Origin: Myxococcaceae bacterium
Lineage (GTDB): Bacteria > Myxococcota > Myxococcia > Myxococcales > Myxococcaceae
Reading direction: 5' to 3'
NCBI GenBank assembly: GCA_016793095.1
Contig: JAEUJQ010000001.1
Location: 186,001 to 250,000 of the forward strand
Length of the DNA: 64,000 nucleotides
Below the pieces are notes generated by a model that saw only the letters and a list, made by a program, of their open reading frames with translations, searched no databases and was not told the DNA's origin. Both the position numbers and the translations under genes were made by a program. Positions 33,257 to 49,702 of this stretch are shown in pieces (position 1 is the first letter of the stretch; each line of letters starts with the position of its first letter).

Positions 33257-36200
33257 TCAGCGGCAGACGCCGGGGAGCGCGACCAGGAAGCGGGCCCCGG
33301 GGACGCCCTGGAGCACCACCAGATCCCGCTGCGCGTCGGTGTTCAGCCTGATCGACGCGACGTCGGCGATGGGCGCGCCTGCGCTGAAGTTGAGGGCGCT
33401 GGTGGTGAAGTTCGACGCGGCCAGGGTGTCGCCGCGCAGGACGGAGAGCACCGAGCTGCCGCTCCCTCCGGCGGACAGGTCGGGCGCAGAGTCATTGTCC
33501 AGATCGGCCAGCACCGTGCGCGCGGGCAGCGCCGGCAGCGAAGCCTGGAACCCGAAGCCACCGCTGCCGTCGCCGCGGTAGAGCCGCCCCCCGATGACGA
33601 AGTCGATCTTGCTGTCGTTGTTGAGATCAGCCGCGACGACGTTGGTGCCCGTCGCGCCGGAGAGGCTGACCGTCGTCCCCGCCACGAAGCCGCCGCCGAC
33701 GTTGATGTACGGCGTGAGCGTCGTGAACGACAGGGAGACCGCCAGCACGTCAGGACGCCCGTCGTTGTTCACGTCGGCCACGACCAGCGATGACGCGCCC
33801 ACTGGTCCGATGGGCTGTTCGGTCGAAAACGCGCCGCTGCCGAGGTTGCGGAACCAGTGCAGGGTGGCGTTGGTGGAGGCGAGCACGTCGACGTTGCCGT
33901 CAGCGTCGAGATCACCCGTCGCGACCAGCGTCGCCGGGGTCGGCGTCGCGAGCTGCAGCGGCGCCGCGAAGGTCCCCGACGTGGAGCCCAGGCGCACCTC
34001 GATCACGGTGGGCAGCAGCCCGACCGAACCGACCGTCGAGCACGTCAGCACCACGTCCTCGGGGTGAGAGCAGTTGTGCGACGTGATGTAGCTGCAGCCG
34101 AAGAGGCTGCTCTCGGAGCCCGTACACGAGACGTTGTCCATCACGATGGGGAGGGTGCCGGGCAGCGGGCTCGGGTACTGGGCGACGATGGCGCCAATCG
34201 GGTTGAAGCCGAGCGTTCGGCACGCGACCGAGCCGTTGTTGGTGGACGTCGTCGAGGGGGGTTCCCAGTTGTCGTCGCAGACGGTGCCCCAGGTGGTGCC
34301 GTTGAACACCTCGAGGCGCCCGGTGATGGACGAGCCGGTCGAGCTGCTGTCGGCGAGCCTGACGTTCGGGTTCCCGGGTGGGAAGACGCCGGCGTCGATC
34401 ACTCCGGCGTCGGCGGCGAGCCCGATGGTGACGAGATCGAAGGCGCTGTCGCCGTTGAGCCGGGCGATGGCGATGCGATCGCTCCGCACGGGGAACGTGG
34501 GCCCGGCGGTGAAGGAGCCGGCCGCGGTGCCGAAGAACACCTCGGCGTTCATGGTCGCGCCGGGACTCGGGGTGACGACCGCGTCTCCGATGCCGTCGCC
34601 GTTCAGGTCCCCGGTCACCACGCGATCAGCGTTGGGCACGCTCATGCCCTGGAGCGCCGGGAACGTGCCGGCCTCGTTGGGCACCGTCACGATCGTCGAG
34701 CCACTCTGGCTGGTGAGATCGGCGCGGCCGTCCTGCGTCAGGTCGGCCAGGACCAGGGACTGCAACGCCGTGCTCGTCACCGCCACGCCGATGGCGGCGG
34801 GGGCCGAGAACAGGCCGCCGCCCTGCGCGAGGAAGAGCCGCAGATCGGTCGCGCCCACGCCGACGTCGAGCCGCGCGTCCGCGTTCACGTCGCCCAGGCT
34901 GATCACCCTCGCAGCCGTCGGGAGGGCCAGCGCTACCGAGGTGCCAAACTGGGCGGCCGCGGTCAGCGGGTACACCCGCACCTGGAAGGTCCCTCCGCCG
35001 ACCGTCGACGCCACCACGGCGTCAGCGACGCCATCACCGGTCACGTCGCCGACCTCGAGCGGGAACGCCGACGCGCCGGAGGTGAACGTCTCGCCCGAGG
35101 GCAGCTGCGCCAGCGCCGCCGCTCCCGTGTTGAAGGGCGTGGCGATCACCCCGGTGCCGGGAAAAAGGTAGACGGCGTTCGTCGCAGCGGTCGCCACCAC
35201 GTCGGAGTGGGCATCGCCGTTCACGTTCACCGCGCGCAGGTTGCTGATGAGGCTGATGCCGATGTTCGCCGAGGTTCCGGCCCCGACCGGCGACCCGCTG
35301 CTGGCCGCGACTCCGGGGAAGAGGATGGCGGCCTGCGACGCCGTCGAGGTGTTGAAGCCGAAGAGGACGTCCCCTGGCGCCGCGCCGGTGAACTCGCCGA
35401 TCGTCACGCTGGAAGGCGTGATCACGCCGATGGGGTTCGCCGTCACGGTGAACTGCGAGAACACGCCCGCGCCACTGTTGCGCAGCACCGACGCGGTGCT
35501 CGAGCTTCCGATCGCGACGATCTCTGGCCGCCCGTCGCCGGTGAGATCACCCGCGACGAGGAAGGTGGGCGTGATGCTGAGCGAGACGCTGGTCGAGGTC
35601 GACGGCGAGAAGCCGCCCGAGGCCTGACCGAACCGGACGTACAGCACGCTCGACTCGGTGCTGACCAGATCCACGCGACCGTCGCCGTTCACGTCCACCA
35701 CCACCATGGGGAAGCTGCTCGACGTGTTCGCGGTGATCACCGGAAGCATCGTGCGGAAGGCGACGCCCGAGGCGCAGAACGCGCGACACTCACCCTGGCT
35801 GCAGCGTTCGGCGCCGGTGCACGCCGTGTTGCACGCGCCGCAGTGAGTCCCGTTCGTCTGCACGTTGACGCAGGTTCCGCCGCACTGCGTGACACAGCCC
35901 GTCGAACAGATGCCGTTCATCCCGCAGATGCCGCGCTCGTTCGGGTTGGCGCTCGAGCAGACCGCGCACGTCGGACCGCACCCCAGCACGTAGTCCGCGG
36001 GCACGCACTGGTTGCCGCCCATCGGGCAGCGGTTGGTGCCCATCGCGCAGTCCCAGCCGCACGCGAACGGCGCGGTGGGAGAGGAGCGCGCGCAGGTGCG
36101 CACGGAGTTGGCTGGCCCAGCGGGACATGGCGTGCAGAGCGTGCCGCAGCCGTCGGGCGAGTTGTCAGCCACGCACTGCGTGCCGCAGCGATGGAAGCCG

Positions 36201-37807
36201 GAGTTGCAGGTGAAGTCGCAGGTCCCGCTGACGCAGGCCGCCGTCGCGTTCGCTGGCGGCGTGCAGGTCAGGCACGACGGCCCGCAGCTGGTGATCGAGT
36301 CGGCGACGCAGACGTTGTTGCAGTAGTTCGGCGTGGTGACGGAGGCGCAGCGCAGGCCGCAGTTCACCCCGTCGCAGGTCGTCGTGGTGCCGCTGCCCAT
36401 CGGGCCGTCGGGACAGGGGGCGCAGCGGGCGCCGCAGGTCGCGGTCGTGAAGTTCGACACGCACTGACCGTTGCACTCGTGGAAGCCGGTGTTGCACTGG
36501 ATGCCGCAGGCGACGCCGTTGCAGGTGGCCGTGCCGTTGACCGGCGTGGGGCAGGCCGTGCAGCTGCTACCGCACGACGTGAGCGCGGTGTCGGAGACGC
36601 ACTGGCTGCCGCACTGGTGGAAACCAGCGGCGCAGGTGTACTGGCACTGCCCGTTGACGCACTGCGGGTTCGTCGCGCCAGCCGGAGGCGTGCAGGTCTG
36701 GCAGGAAGCGCCGCACGAGGTGGCCGACTCCGCCAAGCACTGGTTCCCGCAGCGCGCGAAGCCCGGGTTGCACTGCCACGTGCAGGCGGGCGGCTGGCCG
36801 GCGCCCGGCGACATGCACTGCGCGACCGCGTTGGCGGGGATCACACACGGCTGGCAGCGGTTGCCACAGGTCGCGACGTCGAAGTCCGAGACGCAGTCGT
36901 TGCCGCACTGGTGGAAGCCCGGCGCGCACTGCAGGCTGCAGTCGTTGCCATCACAGACGGGCATCGCGTTCGGCGCGCCGGGACACGCGGTGCAGCGCGT
37001 GCCGCACGTCATCGCGTCGAAGTTCGAGACGCACTGGTTGCCACACAGGTGGTAGCCCGGCATGCAGCTGAAGGTGCAGGCGCCGTTCGTGCACGCGGGG
37101 ATCGAGTTGGGCACCGACGCGCAGTTGAGACAGCTCGGGCCGCACGCGGTGATGGTGTTCGCCGGCACGCAGCTCCCTCCGCAGAAGTTGGCGTTCGCCG
37201 GACACGTGCAGGTGTTCCGCATGGTGTCGCAGATCTGCCCGCCCGCGCAGTGGGTGTTGTTCTGGCAGCCGAAGACGCACGTGCTGCCGGAGCCGCAGTA
37301 GTAGTTCGGTGGACACGACCCCGGAGTCTGAGTGCACATCGTGGGCACGGCGCGGCAGGCGCTGTTGTCGCAGTACTGGCCCGGCCCGCAGCTGCGACCG
37401 CAGGCGCCGCAGTGCCCGAAGTCCGACCGCGTGTTCACGCACGCGCCGCTGCAGAGCGTGAGGCCAGCGGAGCAGGACACCATCCCGCCGCCGGTCCCTC
37501 CACCGACTCCGCCCCCGGTCACGCCTCCGCCCGTGCCCCCCGCGGCGCCTCCGCCCGTCGCCGCCCCCCCGCCAGCGCTGCCTGACGTGCACACATTGCT
37601 CTGGCACGTCTGGCCCGTGGCGCAGGTGCGGCAGTCGAGCCCGCCCGAGCCGCACGCCGCGATCGTCTGCCCGGACTGGCACTCCCCGTTCGCGTCGCAA
37701 CAGCCGGACGCACAGGTCGCTGCGCTGCACCGTCGCACGGGTGGCGTACACGAGAGGAACGCGCTGGAGAGCAGCAGGGCGACGACGACGACTCGAGAGG
37801 TGATCAC
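33257..37807 (-). CDS. Giant Cys-rich VCBS/FG-GAP lipoprotein with an SRCR domain (paralogue A)
   Basis: A 1516-residue predicted surface lipoprotein. GTG 37807 (GGAG 6 bases upstream) opens a signal peptide ending in AFLSC. Residues 20-90: a short Cys cluster and a Gly/Ala/Thr-rich linker. About 90-700: tandem Cys modules of roughly 42 residues, each like C-x2-C-x2-P-x-NA...CxxGFHxCGxQCVS. About 700-1500: FG-GAP/VCBS repeats with calcium-type DVNGDGRVDL loops, interrupted at about 1147-1256 by an SRCR domain with WGTVCDDNW, CRTLGF, SCTGSESSLFGC and HNCSHPEDVVLTC (six Cys). SRCR domains are typical of animal scavenger receptors and rare in bacteria. Likely role is adhesion or contact at the cell surface. 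A close paralogue follows at 38330. Confidence 0.9.
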   Translation of the reverse strand: MITSRVVVVALLLSSAFLSCTPPVRRCSAATCASGCCDANGECQSGQTIAACGSGGLDCRTCATGQTCQSNVCTSGSAGGGAATGGGAAGGTGGGVTGGGVGGGTGGGMVSCSAGLTLCSGACVNTRSDFGHCGACGRSCGPGQYCDNSACRAVPTMCTQTPGSCPPNYYCGSGSTCVFGCQNNTHCAGGQICDTMRNTCTCPANANFCGGSCVPANTITACGPSCLNCASVPNSIPACTNGACTFSCMPGYHLCGNQCVSNFDAMTCGTRCTACPGAPNAMPVCDGNDCSLQCAPGFHQCGNDCVSDFDVATCGNRCQPCVIPANAVAQCMSPGAGQPPACTWQCNPGFARCGNQCLAESATSCGASCQTCTPPAGATNPQCVNGQCQYTCAAGFHQCGSQCVSDTALTSCGSSCTACPTPVNGTATCNGVACGIQCNTGFHECNGQCVSNFTTATCGARCAPCPDGPMGSGTTTTCDGVNCGLRCASVTTPNYCNNVCVADSITSCGPSCLTCTPPANATAACVSGTCDFTCNSGFHRCGTQCVADNSPDGCGTLCTPCPAGPANSVRTCARSSPTAPFACGWDCAMGTNRCPMGGNQCVPADYVLGCGPTCAVCSSANPNERGICGMNGICSTGCVTQCGGTCVNVQTNGTHCGACNTACTGAERCSQGECRAFCASGVAFRTMLPVITANTSSSFPMVVVDVNGDGRVDLVSTESSVLYVRFGQASGGFSPSTSTSVSLSITPTFLVAGDLTGDGRPEIVAIGSSSTASVLRNSGAGVFSQFTVTANPIGVITPSSVTIGEFTGAAPGDVLFGFNTSTASQAAILFPGVAASSGSPVGAGTSANIGISLISNLRAVNVNGDAHSDVVATAATNAVYLFPGTGVIATPFNTGAAALAQLPSGETFTSGASAFPLEVGDVTGDGVADAVVASTVGGGTFQVRVYPLTAAAQFGTSVALALPTAARVISLGDVNADARLDVGVGATDLRLFLAQGGGLFSAPAAIGVAVTSTALQSLVLADLTQDGRADLTSQSGSTIVTVPNEAGTFPALQGMSVPNADRVVTGDLNGDGIGDAVVTPSPGATMNAEVFFGTAAGSFTAGPTFPVRSDRIAIARLNGDSAFDLVTIGLAADAGVIDAGVFPPGNPNVRLADSSSTGSSITGRLEVFNGTTWGTVCDDNWEPPSTTSTNNGSVACRTLGFNPIGAIVAQYPSPLPGTLPIVMDNVSCTGSESSLFGCSYITSHNCSHPEDVVLTCSTVGSVGLLPTVIEVRLGSTSGTFAAPLQLATPTPATLVATGDLDADGNVDVLASTNATLHWFRNLGSGAFSTEQPIGPVGASSLVVADVNNDGRPDVLAVSLSFTTLTPYINVGGGFVAGTTVSLSGATGTNVVAADLNNDSKIDFVIGGRLYRGDGSGGFGFQASLPALPARTVLADLDNDSAPDLSAGGSGSSVLSVLRGDTLAASNFTTSALNFSAGAPIADVASIRLNTDAQRDLVVLQGVPGARFLVALPGVCR

Positions 37808-38329: not shown

Positions 38330-41300
38330 TCAGCGGCAGACTCCCGGCGCGGCGACCACCGCCCGGCTCCCCTGCGGACCCACGAGGACCACCAGATCGC
38401 GCTGCGCGTCCGTGTTGAAGCGGGCGAGCGCGACGTCCTCAACCACCGAGCCAGGCGAGTAGGCGCTCGGCGTCGCCGCGAAGCCGAACGCCGTCGAGGA
38501 GGTGCCGGAGAGCACCGACAACACCGAGCTGGCGCTGCCGGCGCCGATGAGATCGAGCGACCCGCTGTTGTCGAGATCGGCCAGGACCTGCCGCGGCGGC
38601 TGCGTGGGCATCGTCGAGGTCTGCTGAGTGAAGCCCCCTGCCCCGTTGCCGGCGTAGACGAACCGCCCGAACACGAGATCCGGCTTTCCGTCATAGGTGA
38701 CGTCGCCGGCCAGCACGCTGAAGTTGGTCGAGATGCTGGGCGAGATCGCGGTGCCAGCGAGGAAGCCCGCGTTGCCTGGCAGCCCCACGTTCAGCCAGGG
38801 TTCGAGCCGGTTGAAGCTGGCGCTGGCGACCACGATGTCACGCCGGCCGTCGAGGTTGAGATCGGAGAGCGCCAGGCTCGACACCGACGTCGTCGTCAGG
38901 AGCGGCTGCGCGGGCGCGAACATGTTCGAGCCCAGGTTCACCAGCACCTCGACGCCCAGGTTCGAGCCGACCACGATGTCGTTCCGGGTGTCGTTCGACA
39001 CCTCGCCAATCGCGAGGAACGTCGGCGCGGCCCGCACGGGAAGCTGCAGCGGCGCGCTCAGCGTGTTGCCCATGGCGCCGAAGCGCACCTCGACGACGAA
39101 GCCCGTCCCGCCGTCCACCGCGCCAAGGCCTGCGGTCACCAGATCTTCGCGCGTATCGCCGTTGAGCTCACCGATGGCCCCACGATCACCGCGAGTGGTG
39201 AACGACGGCCCCGTGGTGAAGGCGCCCGTTCCCGAGCCGTAGAGCACCTGGGTGGTGCTGTCCTGCGAGACGGCGCCGGTCACCAGACACTCGATGCCGA
39301 GGTCGCTCACGTTGGTGCAGGTCGAGGCGTAGTGCGTACAGGTCTGCCAGGAGGAGTACGAGCTAGAGGCGCAGTAGAAGCCGCTGATGCCGGGCGGCGT
39401 CGAGGGGCTCGGCGTGGTGTAGGACGTGACGGCCGAGCTCAAGCCCAGCGAGCGGCACAGCACCGGGATCTCGTAGCTGATCGACAGCCCCGAGTTGCAC
39501 ACCGTGCCCCAGGCCCCGTTGTAGAAGACCTCGACGCGGCCCCGCACGCTGTTGGTGGTGTACAGCGTGTCCACCAGGCGGATGTTGGTGCCCATCACCG
39601 GCCCCGACATCGAGGGCGAGTTCGCCGCCACGTCGGTGAAGCCGTCGCCGTTCAGGTCACCGGCCGTGATGCGGGTGGCGTTCGGCACGCTGGCGCCCTG
39701 CACGCCTGCGAAGCCGCCCGTGCCGTTGTTGACCGCCGTGACGATGGTGTTGCCCGAGGGCGCGAAGATCTCCGGGCGCGCGTCACCGGTGACGTCCGCC
39801 ACGGCGAGCGAGTTGAAGAAGGTGGCTCCGAAGCTGATGGCGAGCACCTGGGGCATCGCGAAGCCGCCGACCTGGCTCGGGAACACGCGCACGTCGGTCG
39901 TGCCCGCCACCACGTCACGCCGCCCATCTCCGTTGACGTCTGCCGCGACGAGCGCGCGGCTCACGGAGGGCAGCGCCAGCAGGCTCGACGCTCCGAAGGC
40001 GGGGGCTGACGTGAGCGGGAAGACCCGCACGCCGAAGGTGGAACCACCAGCCACGACGGGCACCACCACGTCCGGAACCCCGTCGGCGGTGACGTCGGCC
40101 ACGTCCATCATGAACGACGATCCCGCGGTCCCCGAGGTGAAGCTCTCGCCCGTGCCGAGCTGCGCGAGCACGGCCATCGGCGCGTTGAACGGAGCCGACG
40201 CGCTGCCGGTGCCCGGGTACACATAGACGGCGTTCGACGCGGCCGTCGCGATGAGATCCGTGAAGCCATCGGCGTTCACCAGCGCCGCCCGGACATTCGA
40301 GATCGTGCCGATGCCCAGCCCGGCCGAGCCGGTGACGGTGATCGGGTTGGTGGTCAGCCCATTGCCCGAGAAGAGCGCCGCCGACTGGGCCGCGAGCGAG
40401 GTGTTGAAGCTGAAGACGACGTCAGCCGGGCCGGCGCCGGTGAACTCTCCGATGGTGGCCGAGGTGGGCACCAGCGACGCCCCGTAGGCCAGCGACGAGG
40501 GGATGATGCTGGAGCGGGTGAAGGACCCCGCGCCGAGGTTGCGCAGCACGTCCACGTTGGTGGTGGTGCTCAACACGAGGAGCTCGGGCAACCCGTCTCC
40601 GGTGAGATCGCCCGCGACCAGCTGGGCGGGGTTGTAGTTGAGGGCGGTCTGCACCGCCGTCGTGGAGAACGTGCCTGACGGGCCGGTGCCCGCCGCGTTG
40701 GCGAGGCCCAGGCGGACGTAGAGCGTGTAGTTCTCTGCCACCACCAGATCGTTTCGGCCGTCACCGTTCACGTCGAGCACCAGGAAGGGGAAGGCGCTGG
40801 TCGTGGTGGTGACCGACGGCAGCATCGACGACAGGCCGACGCCCGAGGCGCAGAACGCCCGGCACTGGCCCTCGGAGCAGCGATCGTTCCCGGTGCAGGC
40901 CGTGTTGCAGGCGCCGCAGTGGGCGGCGCTCGTCTGCGCGTTCACGCAGGCGCCCGCGCACTGGGTGATGCAGCCGGTCGTGCAGATGCCGTTGGTGCCA
41001 CACACGCCACGCTCGAGCGCGACCGCCGACGAGCAGACCGCGCACGTCGGCCCGCAGGCGAGCGTGAGATCGGCCGGCACGCACTGCTGCACGGAGTTGA
41101 TCGTGCAGCGGTTGGTCCCGGGGCCGCAGTCCCACCCACACGCGAAGGGGGCCGTCGGCGTGGAGCGCGTGCAGGTCGTCGTGGTGTTGGGAGGACCCGC
41201 CGGACACGCCGAGCAGCTGGTGCCGCAGCTCGACGGGCTGTTGTCGGGCAGGCACTGCGTCCCGCACCGGTGGTAGCCCGACTGGCAGGTGAAGTCGCAG

Positions 41301-42895
41301 GTGCCGCTCACGCACGTGGCGGTCGCGTTCGCTGGCGCGGTGCAGGTGAGGCATGACGGGCCGCAGCTCGTGATGGAGTCGGCCACGCAGACGTTGTTGC
41401 AGTAGTTCGGCGTGGTGACGGAGCCGCAGCGCAGGCCGCAGTTCGTCCCGTCACACGTCACCGTCGTACCGCTGCCCACGGGGCCGTCCGGACAGGGGGC
41501 GCAGCGGCTGCCGCACGTGTTGGTGTTGAAGTTCGAGACGCACTGGCCATTGCATTCGTGGAACCCGACGTTGCACTGCACGCCGCAGCTGGTGCCGTCG
41601 CAGGTCGCGGTGCCGTTCGCGGGGGTGGGGCATGGCGAGCAGCTCATGCCGCAGGTCGCGGGCGACAGGTTCGTCACGCACGCGTTGTTGCACGTGTGGA
41701 ACCCCATCGCGCAGGTGTACTGGCACTGGCCGTTCACGCACTGTGGGTTGGTGGCGCCGGCGGGCGGGGTGCAGGTCTGGCAGGTCGCGCCGCAGGCGGT
41801 GGCCGACTCCGTCACGCACTGGCTGCCACAGCGCACGAAGCCGGGGTTGCACTGGAACGTGCACGCGGGAGGCTGCCCACCCCCTGGCGACATGCACTGG
41901 GCGACGCCGTTGGCCGGAGCCTGGCAGGGCTGGCACGCGTTGCCGCACGTCGCGACGTCGAAGTTCGACACGCAGTCCTGGCCGCACTTGTGGAAGCCCG
42001 CCGCGCAGACGAAGTCACACACGTTGCCGTCGCAGGTGGAGGTCGCGTTGGGGGGAATGACGCAGGCCTGGCAGCTCGTGCCGCACGTGAGGACGTCGAA
42101 GTTCGACACGCACCGGTTGCCACAGCGGTGGTAGCCAGCCGCGCAGGTGAAGCCGCAGACGCCCTGGGAGCACGTCCCGACGCCGTTGGCCACGCTGCAG
42201 TCCAGGCACGAGGCGCCGCACGCGGTCGGGGTGCTCTCGGGCACGCACGAGCTGCCACACAGGTTCGTGCCCGTCGGGCACTCGCAGCGCTTCGTGTTCA
42301 TCTCGCACACGCGGCCGCCCCGGCAGTCTGCGTTGTCACGGCAGCCGAACACGCACATGCTGTTGGAGGGGTCGCAGTAGTAGTTCGTCGGGCACGGTTG
42401 CGCCGGGCCACATGACGCCGGCACCGCCGCGCACTGGCCGTTGCTGCAGTACTGGTTGATGCCGCAGCTCCGCCCGCAAGCGCCGCAGTTGTCGAAGTCG
42501 CTCTGGGTCGCGACGCACCTCAACCCGCACGCCGTGAAGCCCGAGGAGCAGCTCGTCATGCCTCCCGCCGCGCCGCCTCCCGTCGCCCCACCCGCGGTCC
42601 CGCCTCCGCTCGCCCCACCCGCCACGCCGCCGCCCGTGGCGCTCCCGCCGCCGGTGGTGTTCGCCGTGCTGCACTGACCGCTGTTGCAGGTCTGGTTCGT
42701 GCTGCACACGCGGCACTCGTTGCCCTGCGAGCCGCACGCGGTGATCGTCAGGCCTGACTGGCACTGTCCGTTCGCGTCACAGCAGCCCGGACACGACGAC
42801 GAGCTGCACGGCCGCACGGGCGGAGTGCACGCCGTCACTGCCATCGTTGAAACGGCTCCTGCGCCCAGCAGCACCAGCACCTTGATGACGTTCAC
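38330..42895 (-). CDS. Giant Cys-rich VCBS/FG-GAP lipoprotein with an SRCR domain (paralogue B)
   Basis: A 1521-residue paralogue of the protein at 33257, with the same order: signal peptide with lipobox VTAC, Cys cluster, Gly/Ala/Thr-rich linker, tandem 42-residue Cys modules, and VCBS/FG-GAP repeats (VLDVNGDGRNDLV, AGDLTGDGLPELL). A more diverged SRCR-like domain lies at about 1102-1205 (FYNGAWGTVCNSG, LCRSLGL, six Cys). GTG 42895 has AGGGAG 8 bases upstream. Long stretches of the Cys-module DNA are nearly identical to paralogue A, for example around 36300 and 41390, indicating recent duplication or gene conversion. The VCBS parts are more diverged. Both end in APGVCR/LPGVCR. Confidence 0.9.
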   Translation of the reverse strand: MNVIKVLVLLGAGAVSTMAVTACTPPVRPCSSSSCPGCCDANGQCQSGLTITACGSQGNECRVCSTNQTCNSGQCSTANTTGGGSATGGGVAGGASGGGTAGGATGGGAAGGMTSCSSGFTACGLRCVATQSDFDNCGACGRSCGINQYCSNGQCAAVPASCGPAQPCPTNYYCDPSNSMCVFGCRDNADCRGGRVCEMNTKRCECPTGTNLCGSSCVPESTPTACGASCLDCSVANGVGTCSQGVCGFTCAAGYHRCGNRCVSNFDVLTCGTSCQACVIPPNATSTCDGNVCDFVCAAGFHKCGQDCVSNFDVATCGNACQPCQAPANGVAQCMSPGGGQPPACTFQCNPGFVRCGSQCVTESATACGATCQTCTPPAGATNPQCVNGQCQYTCAMGFHTCNNACVTNLSPATCGMSCSPCPTPANGTATCDGTSCGVQCNVGFHECNGQCVSNFNTNTCGSRCAPCPDGPVGSGTTVTCDGTNCGLRCGSVTTPNYCNNVCVADSITSCGPSCLTCTAPANATATCVSGTCDFTCQSGYHRCGTQCLPDNSPSSCGTSCSACPAGPPNTTTTCTRSTPTAPFACGWDCGPGTNRCTINSVQQCVPADLTLACGPTCAVCSSAVALERGVCGTNGICTTGCITQCAGACVNAQTSAAHCGACNTACTGNDRCSEGQCRAFCASGVGLSSMLPSVTTTTSAFPFLVLDVNGDGRNDLVVAENYTLYVRLGLANAAGTGPSGTFSTTAVQTALNYNPAQLVAGDLTGDGLPELLVLSTTTNVDVLRNLGAGSFTRSSIIPSSLAYGASLVPTSATIGEFTGAGPADVVFSFNTSLAAQSAALFSGNGLTTNPITVTGSAGLGIGTISNVRAALVNADGFTDLIATAASNAVYVYPGTGSASAPFNAPMAVLAQLGTGESFTSGTAGSSFMMDVADVTADGVPDVVVPVVAGGSTFGVRVFPLTSAPAFGASSLLALPSVSRALVAADVNGDGRRDVVAGTTDVRVFPSQVGGFAMPQVLAISFGATFFNSLAVADVTGDARPEIFAPSGNTIVTAVNNGTGGFAGVQGASVPNATRITAGDLNGDGFTDVAANSPSMSGPVMGTNIRLVDTLYTTNSVRGRVEVFYNGAWGTVCNSGLSISYEIPVLCRSLGLSSAVTSYTTPSPSTPPGISGFYCASSSYSSWQTCTHYASTCTNVSDLGIECLVTGAVSQDSTTQVLYGSGTGAFTTGPSFTTRGDRGAIGELNGDTREDLVTAGLGAVDGGTGFVVEVRFGAMGNTLSAPLQLPVRAAPTFLAIGEVSNDTRNDIVVGSNLGVEVLVNLGSNMFAPAQPLLTTTSVSSLALSDLNLDGRRDIVVASASFNRLEPWLNVGLPGNAGFLAGTAISPSISTNFSVLAGDVTYDGKPDLVFGRFVYAGNGAGGFTQQTSTMPTQPPRQVLADLDNSGSLDLIGAGSASSVLSVLSGTSSTAFGFAATPSAYSPGSVVEDVALARFNTDAQRDLVVLVGPQGSRAVVAAPGVCR

Positions 42896-43006
42896 GAGTC
42901 GGACTCCCTGTAGGCCCTGAGCCCACAAACACCTGAAACTGCGCCAAACCGCAAGAGGCCCCGAGGGACGAGGAAGTCTCTCGTTTATTCAAAGGCTTGT
43001 GCCGAC

Positions 43007-44256
<1,250 letters not shown>

Positions 44257-44260
<4 letters not shown>

Positions 44261-45486
44261 TCCTGCCTGAGCGCTTCCACGGGGTCGAGGTTGGCCGCGC
44301 GCGCCGCCGGCCAGATGCCGAAGAGCAGCCCGACGAGCGCCGCGAACAGCACGCCGAAGACGACGGTGAGCGGCTTCACGGTGGCCGCGAGCGGCGTCAC
44401 CAGGCTGACGAGCTTCGCGCCCCCGAGGCCGACGACGGTGCCGAGCGCGCCGCCCACCGCCGACACCACCATCGCCTCGAGCATGAACTGCACGATGATG
44501 GTCCGCTTCCGCGCGCCCAGGGCCCGGCGCACGCCGATCTCACGCGTCCGCTCGCGCACCGAGACGAGCATGATGTTCATGATCCCGATGCCGCCCACGA
44601 GCAGCGTGATGAAGCCGATGCCGAGCGCCACGCCGTAGAGCGCGCCGGTGAGCTGCTGGTACGTGCTGGCGAGCTGCTCGGGACGGTTGATCGCGAAGTC
44701 GTCGGGCTTGTCGGGCGGCGTCTTCCGCACCCGGCGCAAGATGCCGACGAGCTCGTCCTCGAGGGCGTCGAGCTGCTCGGGGTTCTTCACCATGACGCCG
44801 ATGGTGAAGCTGCGCCGACCCGCGAAGAAGCTCGTGAAGGTGCCGAGGGGGATCACCACCCGCAGGTCCTGGGAGCTGTCGAGCAGCTTGCCCTTGCGCG
44901 CCAGCGTGCCCACGACGGTGAAGGGCTTCTTGCCCACGCGAATCGTGTGGCCGATCGGGTTGGTGCCCTCGGGGAAGAGCGTGTCGGCCACGTCGGCGCC
45001 CAGCACCGCCACCAGCCGCCGGTTGTCGTCGTCGGGCTGCGAGAAGAAGCGGCCGAGGGCGACCTCGAAGCCGTTGACCTTCGGCCAGTCCTCCGCCGCG
45101 CCCGAGACGACCACCTGTGACAGCTCCGAGCCCAGGAAGGCCACGTCGGCGCTGTCGTCCACCATGGGGATGACGGTCTCGCAGAGCACGCACTGGGCGC
45201 GCACGGCCTCGATCTGCGCCAGCGTGATGTTCTTCCGGTTGCGGAACTCCCACCAGTTGCCGAGCTGCACCCACGGCTGCCTGGAGACGAAGACCGAGCT
45301 CGAGCCCAGGGTCGCCAGCTGCTTCTCGAAGGACGAGTCGAGCCCCTGGGTGATGCCGAGGATCGCCAGGAGCGTCGCCACGCCGATGCCGATGCCCAGC
45401 GTCGTGAGCAGCGTGCGCAGGCGGTGCACCGCGAGCGATCTGACGGCGATCGCGGCGCCCTCGACGAGATCGACGCGCAGGCTCAC
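44257..45486 (-). CDS. MacB-type ABC transporter permease (first permease)
   Basis: A 409-residue permease with the same layout as its downstream neighbour: N-terminal helix near [20 protein letters not shown], a periplasmic domain, three C-terminal helices ([20 protein letters not shown]), [15 protein letters not shown] and the ending [10 protein letters not shown]. The periplasmic domain includes CVLC (two Cys three apart), which the other permease lacks. GTG 45486 overlaps the ATPase stop by 4 bases. The open frame extends through the ATPase gene but that part is not translated in this frame. With the second permease it could form a heterodimer. Confidence 0.93.
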
Positions 45487-46190
45487 GGGCGCGCTCCGGC
45501 GTAGGCGACCTCGGCCCCCGGGCCGTCGGCGACGATCCTTCCGTCCGAGAGCCGCACCGCGCGCGGACAACGCGCCGCCAGCTTCGGCTCGTGGGTGACG
45601 AGGACGATGGTGTGGCCCTGCTGGTGCAGCTCTTCGAAGAGCCTGACGATCTCCTCGCCGGTCGCGCTGTCGAGGTTGCCCGTGGGCTCGTCGGCGAGGA
45701 GCAACGACGGCTGGGCCGCGAGCGCCCGGGCGATGGCGACGCGCTGCCGTTGCCCGCCGGAGAGCTCGGTGGGCTTGTGGTGCATGCGTGGCGTGAGCTT
45801 CACCTTCTCGAGCGCCTCCTTCGCCAGGGCGCGCCGCGTCTTCGCCCGTTCGCCGCGGTACACCAACGGCAGCTCGACGTTCGCGAGGGCTGTCTCCCGC
45901 GGCAGCAGCTGGAAGTTCTGGAAGATGAAGCCGATCTCGCGGTTGCGGATGTCGGCGAGCGCGTCGTCGGACAGGCGCGCGACGTCCTTGCCGTTGAGCC
46001 GGTAGGCGCCGCGCGTGGGCGTGTCGAGGCAGCCGATCACGTTCATCAACGTGGACTTGCCCGAGCCAGACTGACCGATGATCGCCACCCACTCGCCCTT
46101 CGCGATCGACATCGACACGCCATCGAGGGCGTGCACCACCTCGCCGCCGACGACGTACTCCCGCGCGATGTCGGTCAGCTCGATCAGCAT
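45483..46190 (-). CDS. MacB/LolD-type ABC transporter ATP-binding protein
   Basis: A 235-residue ATPase powering the two permeases. Walker [10 protein letters not shown] (about 39-47), Q-loop [10 protein letters not shown], signature [15 protein letters not shown], Walker [17 protein letters not shown] and H-loop VTHEP. The [17 protein letters not shown] opening and DEPTGNLD are typical of the MacB/LolD subfamily, which drives mechanotransmission without moving substrate through the membrane. It follows the adaptor gene by 4 bases and overlaps the first permease by 4. Confidence 0.97.
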
Positions 46191-46194
46191 GCGA

Positions 46195-47463
46195 TCAGCC
46201 GCGCTTGCCCTTGAAGCGACCGCCCTGCCCCGGCTTCGCCTCCTCGACCGCGTCGCCCTCCTTCAGCTCCTTCGCCAGCGTGCGGTACGGCCCCTCGACG
46301 ATGCGCTCACCCTCCTCGAGCCCCTCGAGGATCTCGATGTCCGTGTCGGACGCGATGCCGGTGCGGACGCGGCGAATGGCCACGCGCTGATCCTTGCCGA
46401 CGACGAAGACGACCTTGGCGAAGCGCTCGCCCGTCTTGCCCTTCGCCTGAATCGGCTTGCCCTCGACCTGCACCGGCAGGTCCTTGAGCGAGGTCTCTGG
46501 GCGAACGGTGACGGCCTGCACCGGCACGACGACAGCGGACTCCCGCTGCTCGGCGGTGATGCGCACCTCGGCGCTCATGCCTGGCATCACGCCCGGGGGC
46601 CGCGAGGTGAGCGCGACGGTGACCGGGAAGCTCGTCGTCTCCTGCTCCGAGCCCTGGTTGCGGATCAGCGCCTTCTGGGCGATCTCGACCACCCGCCCGT
46701 CGAAGGACTGCCCCTCGAGCGCGTCGATCTTCACGTCCGCGCGCTGATCGATCGCCAGGTGCACGACCTCGTGCTCACCGACCTCGATCTTCACCTCCAT
46801 CGAGGCCAGCGCCGCGAGCGTCATCACCACGTCTTCGTTGAAGTCGCTGCCGCGCACCCGCTCGCCGACCTCCCGGGTGCGTTCGATCACCGTGCCGTCG
46901 ATGGGCGACACGAGCGTCGTCTTCGTGAGGTTGTTCTGCGCCTCGTCGAGCACGGCCTGCTGCTGCCCGACCCGATCGGTGAGCGCCGCGACCCGCGCGC
47001 GCGCCGACGCCAGCGAAGACTGCGAGGTCTCCACCTCGGCCTGAGACGACAGCCCCTTCGCCGCGAGGCCCTGCACCCGCTCGAACTCCCGCTGAGCGCG
47101 CTCCACCTCGACCTGCGCCGTCACCACGTCGGACCGCGCGGCGTTCTGCGCGGCCTGCGCCTGACGGACGTTGGCCTCGAAGCGCCGCCGATCGATGCGC
47201 CCCAGCACCTGGCCCTTCGTCACGTGATCGCCTTCCTTCACGGTCAGCTCGATGAGATCCCCCGAGAGGCTCGAGCTGATCTTCACCGTGGTCGCCGGCT
47301 GCACCTTGCCGGCGCCGGTGATCGTGCGGGTGATCGGGGAGCGCCGGGCTGCGCCGACCTGCACCTCGACGGGCGGCGGAGGACGTTCCCTGAGGCCGGC
47401 GGCGGTGATCGCGCCCAGGCCGACGACGAGCACCAGGGCGATGAGGCCTTTCCACCAGGTCAT
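46195..47463 (-). CDS. MacA-type periplasmic adaptor of a tripartite exporter
   Basis: A 422-residue membrane-fusion protein: one N-terminal helix ([21 protein letters not shown]), a lipoyl-like half-motif ([21 protein letters not shown]), a coiled-coil hairpin (about 100-180, [22 protein letters not shown]), the second lipoyl half ([22 protein letters not shown]), beta-barrel domain and a membrane-proximal end. It bridges the MacB-type transporter to the outer-membrane TolC protein. It overlaps the TolC gene by 4 bases. The C-terminus is Gly/Lys-rich. Confidence 0.94.
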
Positions 47464-48788
47464 GGCTTCTCCTGCACGGCGAGGCGATCGCCGGCGAGTC
47501 GTTCGAGCGCGGCGCGGGCAATCTCCACGTCCACCCGGGTCTGAAGTTGCGTGAGCTGGGCCAGCAGCGCCCGCGTCTGCGCGTCACGTACTGAGAGGCT
47601 GGTGGTGGCGCCAGCCGCGTAGCGCTGCTCCTCGGCCGAGAAGCTCTCGTCGGCGAGCGCCCGGTTCTTCGCGGCGAGGGTCGCGATCTCGAGCTGCGCG
47701 GCGAGCGCGCCCGAGGCCCGCACGATCTCTCCCTCGAGCTCGATGAGGGCCTGCGCCTGCTGGCGCTCGAGCTCGGTCAGCTGCGCACGCGCCCGCGACA
47801 CCTGCGTGTCCGTCGCCAGCCCGCTGAAGAGATCCCACGACAGGTTCGCCCCGAGGGTGAGCGCGTGCTGCCTGGTGGGATCGACGAAGAGCTCGGCGGA
47901 CGGCGCCGTGCGGTTGTAGTTCGCGCTCGCCGCCAGCCGCGGGAAGTAGTCGGCGCGCGCGAGCTCGACCGCCAGCTTCGCGCCCCGCCCCTGCGCGTCG
48001 AGCACCTGCAGCAGCGGGCGCTGCCGTCTGGCGCGCTCGAGCATGGCCCGGGCGTCGATGAGCTCGTTCGAGGACGGCTCCTCGAAGCCGGCGGGCGCCT
48101 TCGCCTCGAGCTCCCGCGGCGGCTGCCCCAGCCACTGCAGCAGCGAGGCCTGCGCGGCGACGATCGCCTGCCGCTGGCGGATCACCGCGATCCGGTCGTT
48201 GCCCAGGTTCACCTCGGCGTCGAGCACGTCGCGCTTCTGGGCCCGCCCCGCCTCGAAGAGCCCCTTCGCCCGCTCGAGCAGATCAGCGCTGCGCTTCACG
48301 GTGCCCTCGAGCACCGTCAAGGCGAGCTGCGCCCGCAACAGCTCGTAGAAGCGCCGCACCGCCTCGAGCTCGCTCGACGCCTGCTGCTCGAGCAGCTGCC
48401 CCTTCGCCGCCTCCTCGAGCGCGCCGGTCCGCGCGAGCTGGTTCCACCAGCGGCCCCCGTCATAGAGGAGCTGCGAGACCTGCAGGCCGAGCTGGAAGTT
48501 GCCCTGCGAGAAGCCGGGGATGTCCACGGGGCGTTGGACGAAGGTGAGCGAGCCGTCGGGCTGGAGCTGCGGCGCGGTGGTGAACCGGCGCTGGGCCCCG
48601 GCGAAGGTCTCGCTGATGGAGGCGGTGAGATCGACCTGCGGGAAGATCACCGAGCGGGCGTCGGCGCGATCGAGCCCCGCGCGGGTGACCCCCAGCTCGG
48701 CGCGTACGGCGTCGAGGTTCTGCCGCGAGGCCTGGCGGACCTCGTCGAGGGTCAACGGGCTCGCCGTGAGCAGGAGCGCGACCAGCAT
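47460..48788 (-). CDS. TolC-family outer-membrane efflux protein
   Basis: A 442-residue outer-membrane channel. A short signal (MLVALLLTASPLTLDEV) runs into the typical N-terminal helix DEVRQASRQNLDAVRAEL. Two OEP repeats follow, with long helices such as LLEQQASSELEAVRRFYELLRAQLAL and ALTLGANLSWDLFSG in the second barrel portion. ATG 48788 follows a good candidate signal peptide; the longer frame upstream is antisense to the Yip1 gene. It overlaps the Yip1 stop by 1 base (TGATG) and MacA by 4 bases, so translation is coupled along the operon. Substrate unknown. Confidence 0.92.
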   Translation of the reverse strand: MLVALLLTASPLTLDEVRQASRQNLDAVRAELGVTRAGLDRADARSVIFPQVDLTASISETFAGAQRRFTTAPQLQPDGSLTFVQRPVDIPGFSQGNFQLGLQVSQLLYDGGRWWNQLARTGALEEAAKGQLLEQQASSELEAVRRFYELLRAQLALTVLEGTVKRSADLLERAKGLFEAGRAQKRDVLDAEVNLGNDRIAVIRQRQAIVAAQASLLQWLGQPPRELEAKAPAGFEEPSSNELIDARAMLERARRQRPLLQVLDAQGRGAKLAVELARADYFPRLAASANYNRTAPSAELFVDPTRQHALTLGANLSWDLFSGLATDTQVSRARAQLTELERQQAQALIELEGEIVRASGALAAQLEIATLAAKNRALADESFSAEEQRYAAGATTSLSVRDAQTRALLAQLTQLQTRVDVEIARAALERLAGDRLAVQEKP

Positions 48789-49702
48789 CACCGCGGTCCT
48801 CCTTCTGCGAGACCTGGCAGGCCGATCGTCACCGCGGCCACCGTGACGAAGTACAGCACCACGCCGATCGGCACTGCCTGCCAGCGGGCCCGCCGGGTCG
48901 CCGCCGCGAAGCCCAGGCCGAGCAGCACCGCGCTCCAGAGATGAAAGAAGTCGGCGAGGCCCAGCAGCGACGCGCCGGCCATCGGCTTCCATGCGCGCCC
49001 GGAGTCCGCGCCCGACGCGCCCCGGTCCACGCGCTCCCCCACCTTCTCCGCCGTTGCACCCCGGTGCGCCCCCCTGGCGAGCTCCTCCGCTGACGCGCCC
49101 GACGAGGCCCGGTCCGCCCCCTTCCCCGGCTTCGCTGCGTGGGCGGCGTCAGCTCCCGACGCGCCCCGGTCCGCTCCCTTCGGGACCTCCTCGGCCGACG
49201 CCCGGGCCTCGAGGACCGCCCCGAGCGACGAGGGCACGAGGTGCTGCACGCCCTTCGGGGCGATGACGCGCTGGTTGAGCGCCGCCGCCAGCGTGACGCC
49301 CTGCCCGACGGCGACCGGCAGCAGCGCGAGGCAGATCACCGTGAAGCTCTCGACGAAGGCTGTCCGACCGCCGACGAGCCAGGCCATGAGCCACAGCCCC
49401 AGCGCCGCGACGAGCGCGAGCGCGGGCACCCCGAAGATCCCCTTCGCGACGCCCGCGACGATGGCGACCCGCTGCGCCTGCTCCACCTGCTCGGCGATCT
49501 CGCGCTCGCTCGCCTTCGCCAGTTCGCCAGCGGCCTCCAGCCGCGGCAGCACGACCCGCGCCGTGTCGAGCCTGGTCGCGATGGCCGCCGAGGCTGCGGC
49601 CGAGAGCACCATCGCCAGCACGAGGGGCACGAGCCAGGCGCGCGCCTCGACCGCGGGCGGCACGGCCCCGACAGGATCGACAAGCACGGCGAGGGCGCGC
49701 AT
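48788..49702 (-). CDS. Yip1-domain membrane protein with a repetitive insert
   Basis: A 304-residue protein (ATG 49702; ATG 49738 would add 12) with about five membrane helices: WLVPLVLAMVLSAAASAAI, GIFGVPALALVAALGLWLMAWLV, FTVICLALLPVAVGQG, FHLWSAVLLGLGFAA and IGVVLYFVTVAAVTIGL. The layout fits the Yip1 family. A hydrophilic loop of about 70 residues near the middle consists of degenerate repeats (KGADRGASGAD, KGADRASSGASAEEL, RGASGAD) encoded by partly repeated DNA, including an 18-bp exact repeat at 49011 and 49155. It is the first gene of the exporter operon, overlapping tolC by 1 base. Role in export not known. Confidence 0.8.
   Translation of the reverse strand: MRALAVLVDPVGAVPPAVEARAWLVPLVLAMVLSAAASAAIATRLDTARVVLPRLEAAGELAKASEREIAEQVEQAQRVAIVAGVAKGIFGVPALALVAALGLWLMAWLVGGRTAFVESFTVICLALLPVAVGQGVTLAAALNQRVIAPKGVQHLVPSSLGAVLEARASAEEVPKGADRGASGADAAHAAKPGKGADRASSGASAEELARGAHRGATAEKVGERVDRGASGADSGRAWKPMAGASLLGLADFFHLWSAVLLGLGFAAATRRARWQAVPIGVVLYFVTVAAVTIGLPGLAEGGPR

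Follow-up and report, generated by a model that had tools for sequence, protein, structure and literature searches.

In the excerpted text of PMC7043408, cation sites 2 and 3 of the SRCR8 domain of DMBT1 are made up of D1019, D1020, D1058, D1059, N1081 and E1086, and either of the changes D1019A and D1020A abolishes binding; calcium dependence has been lost in CD6, and the cation site is thus typical of these domains but not obligatory. The window analysed here, a stretch of 64,000 nucleotides from a Myxococcaceae bacterium, encodes two proteins that can be compared with this superfamily (DMBT1/SALSA, CD163, MARCO; PF00530), which is familiar chiefly from immune receptors of animals. They share the profile match and the six Cys, and one of them, A, has the key SRCR8 cation residues; they differ in being bacterial, in carrying the domain inside a propeller blade and, in the second protein, B, in having no cation site. 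The parts of PMC4448552 and PMC10855680 drawn on here handle SRCR as an animal topic, and the corresponding part of PMC6508830, on the lysyl oxidases of myxobacteria, names SRCR for mammalian enzymes only. Among the literature matches listed (titles and the starts of abstracts), none reports a bacterial SRCR protein, and none was found that pairs FG-GAP with SRCR, or SRCR with metagenome-assembled; there may be work outside the searched library.

Integrin alpha chains with an I domain are likewise propellers that gained a ligand-binding domain by insertion, although the insert is a vWA domain between blades 2 and 3 (PMC10659397, in excerpt), whereas here it is SRCR and appears to have changed blade between A and B; no shared descent is claimed. 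TraA of the myxobacteria also has Cys-rich repeats and a variable domain that groups the proteins differently from the whole sequence, for which the excerpted text points to horizontal transfer (PMC6372800). The variable domain of TraA is PA14-like and is accompanied by MYXO-CTERM, whereas A and B have SRCR, FG-GAP and a lipobox-like start, and their part in recognition is putative. Finally, the seven-bladed lectins CV39L, BP39L, PLL4, PLL5 and PHL share the fold of the first propeller of A (Z 26.9–29.0) but have 11–16% identity to it.

Organization of genes A and B

All coordinates given here are window positions, and all of the features are on the minus strand. Gene A (33257..37807) starts with GTG and encodes 1516 amino acids, the same frame as in an earlier note on this DNA; translation and profile matches describe a likely lipoprotein with a Cys-rich region, FG-GAP propellers and an SRCR insert. 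Residues 1–20 (37748..37807) look by eye like a signal peptide with a hydrophobic start ending in the lipobox-like AFLSC, in which position –3 is F where L is usual; the end in B is VTAC. The lipid anchor proposed in the earlier note is probable, and both A and B are probably lipid-anchored surface proteins. Residues 26–674 (35786..37732) form a modular Cys-rich region, defined by Cys counts, module pattern and NCBIfam. Most of the 115 Cys of A (108) lie within residues 20–690, and a pattern of our own finds 12 modules in A, close to the dozen counted previously, and 13 in B. The NCBIfam model for MXAN_6577-like Cys-rich proteins (NF041328) matches four stretches of A (56.8 bits) and five of B (47.4 bits), under its cut-off of 100 bits, which suggests a distant relative of these proteins and not a member. 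PA14-like domains and MYXO-CTERM are not listed in Pfam scans of pieces of A or in the NCBIfam scan at E up to 0.1, where HMMER filters may drop weak matches.

The Cys-rich region is followed by a first propeller (residues 684–1052; 34652..35758), delimited with VIA-align, and a second one (residues 1053–1516; 33260..34651), delimited from the strand list of the model and FG-GAP_3 matches, the second blade of which is interrupted by the SRCR domain (residues 1147–1256; 34040..34369). A linker, AADAGVIDAGVFPPGN (34370..34417), identified from the sequence and its alignment, precedes the SRCR domain. PF00530, phmmer and residue alignment confirm, at the level of sequence, that gene A carries a true SRCR domain at the residues where the earlier note had placed it. 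The domain alone scores 74.5 bits against PF00530 (E 9.2e-21, cut-off 26.1) and 73.7 bits in a six-frame genome search, in which none of 14 control genomes has a match. With phmmer, it matches 25 distinct PDB sequences at E<=0.001, including CD163, CD5-like, DMBT1 and MARCO. All six Cys are present, as they are in each of the seven A proteins compared, and we take the pattern to be class A. SRCR is not listed by hmmscan of the whole A and B proteins, and is seen with the domain alone and in the genome search. The FG-GAP surroundings are also as previously described, with FG-GAP_3 matches on both sides of the SRCR (the short upstream piece at 24.9 bits against a cut-off of 26.9) and an FG-GAP match in the whole protein at E 8e-49.

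Two SRCR matches were obtained in the genome, which spans 8.8 Mb in 93 contigs; both are inside the window (C85:186001–250000), and the second, missed by the earlier note, is in gene B. This is a tandem paralogue of A with 51% identity by translation and comparison (38330..42928), of 1532 residues from a TTG, or possibly starting at a GTG at 42895. Its SRCR domain (residues 1114–1214; 39287..39589) matches PF00530 with 50.3 bits when searched alone (E 3e-13, cut-off 26.1); it retains six Cys, has lost the cation-site residues, and is one blade upstream of the site in A. Eukaryotic contamination is ruled out, as gene A is in a 317 kb contig with bacterial neighbours and has orthologues in the genus. 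Recent acquisition of the SRCR from a foreign donor has left no compositional sign: the SRCR stretch has a GC content of 67% compared with 67–77% in windows of the gene, and GC3 in the 100-codon window from residue 1151 is 0.95, with gene windows at 0.86–0.97. In one species of the genus, a 304-residue minus-strand frame (L035, on contig G152:C11) is apparently gene A reduced to its tail, with 76% identity to residues 1280–1516 of A, a stretch just past the SRCR; the frame is directly behind B.

Predicted structures

AlphaFold models of A and B, built from seven-row alignments, have mean pLDDT values of 76.2 and 72.6 and pTM values of 0.58 and 0.65, respectively. The propeller parts are mostly at pLDDT 70–90 and the SRCR stretch is poorly modelled, with block values of about 37–61 in A, and values in B that stay below 50 between 445 and 535. 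VIA-align superposes the first propeller of A on lectin CV39L (Z 29.0, rmsd 2.9, 324 residues) and on integrin alphaV (Z about 27–28), in rows that mostly span model residues 11–379 and barely cover the second propeller and SRCR. The top Foldseek rows are DDB1 and SF3B chains, at a TM of about 0.3 over the whole model. Our reading of the strand lists is that the second propeller would have seven blades and that in both proteins the SRCR follows a second strand, that of blade 2 in A and that of blade 1 in B. The loop that bears it is presumably on the blade face away from the calcium loops, and this is the ligand face in integrins.

Cation-site residues

The equivalents of D1019, D1020, D1058 and E1086 are kept in all seven A proteins, while that of D1059 is D in four and N in three, and that of N1081 is N in five and D in two. 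The window A has D1019, D1020, D1058, N1081 and E1086, with N at the D1059 position. The site 1 equivalents, D1023 and D1026, are D in only one and three of the seven, respectively (E and N in the window A). Of 129 other bacterial SRCR domains, 119, 120, 123 and 117 retain D1019, D1020, D1058 and E1086, respectively, and only 56 and 68 have D at the D1023 and D1026 positions, such that the site 1 residues do not define the family.

None of the seven B proteins has the dual cation-site set; B_G149 retains D1020, and its last columns are unaligned to the profile. A loss this complete is what would be expected if the SRCR of B were a functionless, decaying remnant, but the six Cys align in six of the seven B proteins (the end of B_G149 reads ...STCFSGPAQLEC), there is no stop codon within the SRCR of any B, and the SRCR types are common to several species; we therefore consider decay quite unlikely. 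The residue counts suggest that a metal-site form, in A, and a metal-free form, in B, split before the species of the genus parted.

Probable relocation of the SRCR by one blade

We aligned seven A proteins, seven B proteins and seven homologues lacking SRCR (prefixed A_, B_ and N_, followed by the genome number, with G000 as the window genome), and then 19 of the 21 with the SRCR excised (without B_G153 and N_G067). The SRCR is at one place in all seven A proteins (columns 626–642, with five at 640) and at column 566 in all six aligned B proteins. These sites are equivalent loops of neighbouring blades, with B using the blade preceding that of A, and both are empty in the seven SRCR-less homologues, six of which are also in the excised alignment. 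Accordingly placed in the window are a loop of A equivalent to the B site and with no insert (34538..34579; by alignment) and a loop of B at the vacated A site (39101..39124; by alignment and motif) with what appears to be a remnant of the linker, GAVDGGTG. The offset is also seen when the seven B proteins and the A proteins of the genus (five) are compared by 60-residue segments. The best A match of the segment following the B SRCR is wholly before the A site in 32 of 35 pairs; for the segment preceding the A SRCR, the best B match crosses the B site and ends more than 20 residues past it in all 35.

The motif D[GA]G is present at the vacated loop in all seven B proteins and nowhere else in their last 740 residues (B_G149 has it twice, both there). 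It is in the linker preceding the SRCR in all five A proteins of the genus, with one further copy elsewhere in A_G153. A_G112 has it at the site and at three other places, and A_G069 has it elsewhere and not at the site. None of the seven N proteins has the motif at the A loop; N_G103 has it once elsewhere.

In a scaffold tree rooted on N_G103, the N proteins are outermost, followed by A_G112 and A_G069 (92/91), and the A (100/100) and B (100/99) proteins of the genus are sisters in a clade supported at 100/99; the branches of A_G069, A_G112 and N_G103 are long. When the tree is built from the downstream part only, A_G069 is beside B with low support (64/55). With A_G112 and A_G069 outside the joint clade in the scaffold tree, rooted on SRCR-less homologues, it is most likely that the A site is older than the B site and that the duplication occurred within the genus.

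The SRCR of B could in principle be a second, separate insertion and not a relocated copy of the first. B is highly divergent, and a quick SRCR tree of 143 rows does not join A and B, but places B beside a long row, which was flagged as a long-branch join and for which the tree was set aside. A and B of the genus do form a clade (100/99) in a 56-row tree, for which ten long rows were removed from the 129, and 42 of the 119 left were used (36 random plus eight named neighbours, with overlaps merged), a choice of rows that leans toward those near A. Furthermore, with a profile of the B SRCR that includes its linker, the top five of 136 others are the A proteins of the genus; without the linker these five rank first, second, fifth, twelfth and thirteenth. 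Because of this ranking and the joint clade, the SRCR of B is most likely derived from that of A, and with the remnant at the vacated site in seven of seven B proteins we regard two separate insertions as very unlikely. The rows of A_G069 and A_G112 are apart from those of the genus in the tree, and joining them in one clade is not rejected (p 0.356). For the move itself, recombination between the similar neighbouring blades would be the simplest route.

SRCR and scaffold genealogies are discordant

Within the genus, identities in the SRCR do not follow those in the two propeller parts around it. One example is B_G000 and B_G151, with 82% identity in the SRCR compared with 66% in both propeller parts, and a second is B_G150 and B_G153, with 70% compared with 62% and 48%. 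B_G000 and B_G150 are only 40% identical in the SRCR, compared with 70% and 65%, and for B_G000 and B_G149 the values are 52%, and 59% and 53%. B_G149 and B_G153 are 39% identical in the SRCR, though they are scaffold sisters and their genomes are joined (89/98) in a tree of the species marker FtsX2, which agrees with the scaffold.

AU tests were performed on clades named after the identity table had been seen, and in a genus with only seven genomes. Of four scaffold clades, the SRCR rejects three, namely B_G149+B_G153 (p 0.0016), the remaining B proteins, five in number (0.0029), and A_G154+A_G150 (0.0008), and does not reject the fourth (A_G000+151+154+150, 0.116). Reciprocally, five of six tests of SRCR groupings in the flanks end in rejection: the upstream propeller part rejects B_G000+151+149 (7e-5), B_G150+152+154+153 (3e-5) and A_G153+154 (0.025), and the downstream part does so for the first two (0.0008 and 0.030) and not for the third (0.064). 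A fast domain with variable rates or convergent changes could give such a pattern, in that the SRCR is among the least conserved parts, has only 103 columns, and includes B_G149 as a long branch. This explanation seems distinctly improbable to us, as the two SRCR groups within B are rejected upstream and downstream alike, and several pairs of the same type have higher identity in the SRCR than in the propeller parts, with B_G000 and B_G149 being contrary. Most of the AU tests, although not all, thus favour the interpretation that SRCR types have been exchanged or retained independently of the scaffold. Synonymous identity between B_G000 and B_G151 is higher in the SRCR (63/81 compared with 191/300, p 0.017), for one pair picked after the table had been seen and with counts rebuilt from rounded values. 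Other pairs have no marked rise of synonymous identity in the SRCR, and the exchange would therefore be old, or the types long kept.

Exporter genes upstream of B

Directly upstream of B and on the same strand are genes for a MacB-type permease, MacB, and HlyD-like and TolC-like proteins (43010..48992), a possible exporter partner. The order of exporter followed by B is kept in four genomes (G000, G150, G151 and G152) and is probable in two more (G153 and G154), in which a Cys-rich frame comes next and the contig runs out. In G106, G070 and G071, the exporter also directly precedes the SRCR-less homologue. A and B could thus be substrates or accessories of this exporter, with the SRCR a loop decoration that has no role in recognition. 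However, a permease match at E<=1e-120 is present in 93 of 96 genomes of the family, the homologue is 5.4–5.5 kb from the exporter in G067 and G069, and ten of the 17 exporter loci examined have no such gene among the first long frames downstream (G149, G112, G110, G148, G109, G097, G101, G063, G120 and G129, some with little sequence). The proposal also leaves the SRCR discordance unexplained, and we think it unlikely, although a working link between the exporter and A and B is possible. We note that in G149 (L031, L220) B does not adjoin the exporter and its SRCR is the sole match; there may be gaps in the assembly.

Distribution of bacterial SRCR domains

Sixteen of 195 genomes in the phylum have an SRCR match at E<=0.001, 15 of them above the cut-off. 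Twelve of the 16 are in the same family, and each of the seven genomes in the genus has one or two SRCR domains. The closest named relatives are in metagenome-assembled genomes (MAGs) of Myxococcaceae, Archangiaceae and Archangium. A wider search for bacterial SRCR gave 173 pattern matches, of which 95 encode a relative and 79 distinct named loci were kept. All 79 are titled as MAGs, many from Gammaproteobacteria and Myxococcota and some from Chloroflexi. Bacterial SRCR domains are not rare, and the argument in the earlier note that SRCR is mainly an animal module is weakened by these 79 loci and by the 16 phylum genomes.

FG-GAP was not found beside the SRCR in any of six other bacterial SRCR proteins scanned (L084, L102, L113, L116, L064 and L069). 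Beyond these six, the check for FG-GAP was by motif, and whole-protein scans can miss domains, so FG-GAP and SRCR may also be combined in other proteins; calcium motifs are on both sides of the SRCR in L084, L102, L113 and L116, as well as in L056/L072 and L089, and before it only in L064 and L069. The partner domains in the six include MopE, uromodulin D8C, fibrinogen-like and plastocyanin-like domains and others; for example, SRCR is combined with uromodulin D8C in L064 and L069 and with a fibrinogen C-terminal domain in L084, and there are also MopE metal-binding domains. L052, a 442-residue open frame at the end of a Myxococcota contig (G003:C11), has two SRCR domains between what look by eye like LDL-receptor class A-like repeats. 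SRCR domains closely related to one another are also encoded in gammaproteobacterial MAGs (L061, L070, L073–L075, L078–L079, L085, L088, L090, L092–L093, L098, L100 and L103), most of them with about 320–410 residues following the SRCR. Judging from the isolate names, these are presumably from sponge hosts.

Discussion

The sequences support an account of this locus in which an SRCR-less propeller protein gained an SRCR domain, and the gene was then duplicated in tandem within the genus. In copy B, the SRCR was relocated to the corresponding loop one blade earlier, perhaps through recombination between neighbouring similar blades, leaving a remnant of the linker at the old site; the key residues for cation binding were retained in A and lost in B. 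The SRCR loop presumably faces away from the calcium loops. A may bind an anionic ligand through a calcium-dependent site, by analogy with DMBT1, and B may bind a partner without metal. Specificity for partner cells, prey or surfaces could differ between SRCR types.

We term the SRCR a recognition module chiefly because its discordance with the scaffold matches the pattern in TraA. The suggestion in the earlier note of surface recognition or adhesion is favoured by the cation residues of A, by the discordance between the SRCR and its flanks, and by the lectin- and integrin-like first propeller, and it stands as a suggestion. That A and B are tandem, probably lipid-anchored surface receptors, in which a Cys-rich stalk carries FG-GAP propellers and a loop of the second propeller holds an SRCR recognition module that was gained, duplicated and moved by one blade, is a reading we hold with belief and doubt in about equal measure. 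A broader proposal, in which we have less confidence and which we would call somewhat unlikely, is that they constitute a previously undescribed polymorphic recognition system of the Myxococcaceae. An SRCR cassette on integrin-like propellers would be exchanged between lineages and shift between blades to alter specificity, with A metal-dependent and B metal-independent, and the two would jointly tell apart kin, prey or surfaces, a task for which TraA uses a different domain.

The SRCR domain by itself is a new member of a known family, and what appears to be new in the pair is the insertion, the one-blade move and the discordance. The resulting protein, a propeller receptor with a mobile recognition insert, would be comparable in its build to the inserted-domain integrins and in its variation to TraA. 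Two inventions of animals, the SRCR domain used in recognition and the FG-GAP propeller with a ligand-binding insert, may thus have a counterpart in bacteria. The one-blade move and its remnant would make the relocation of an inserted domain open to reconstruction, and the conflict between SRCR and scaffold, which points to a recognition module, would open ligand specificity to a specific test, in a group of bacteria, the myxobacteria, known for kin discrimination and predation.
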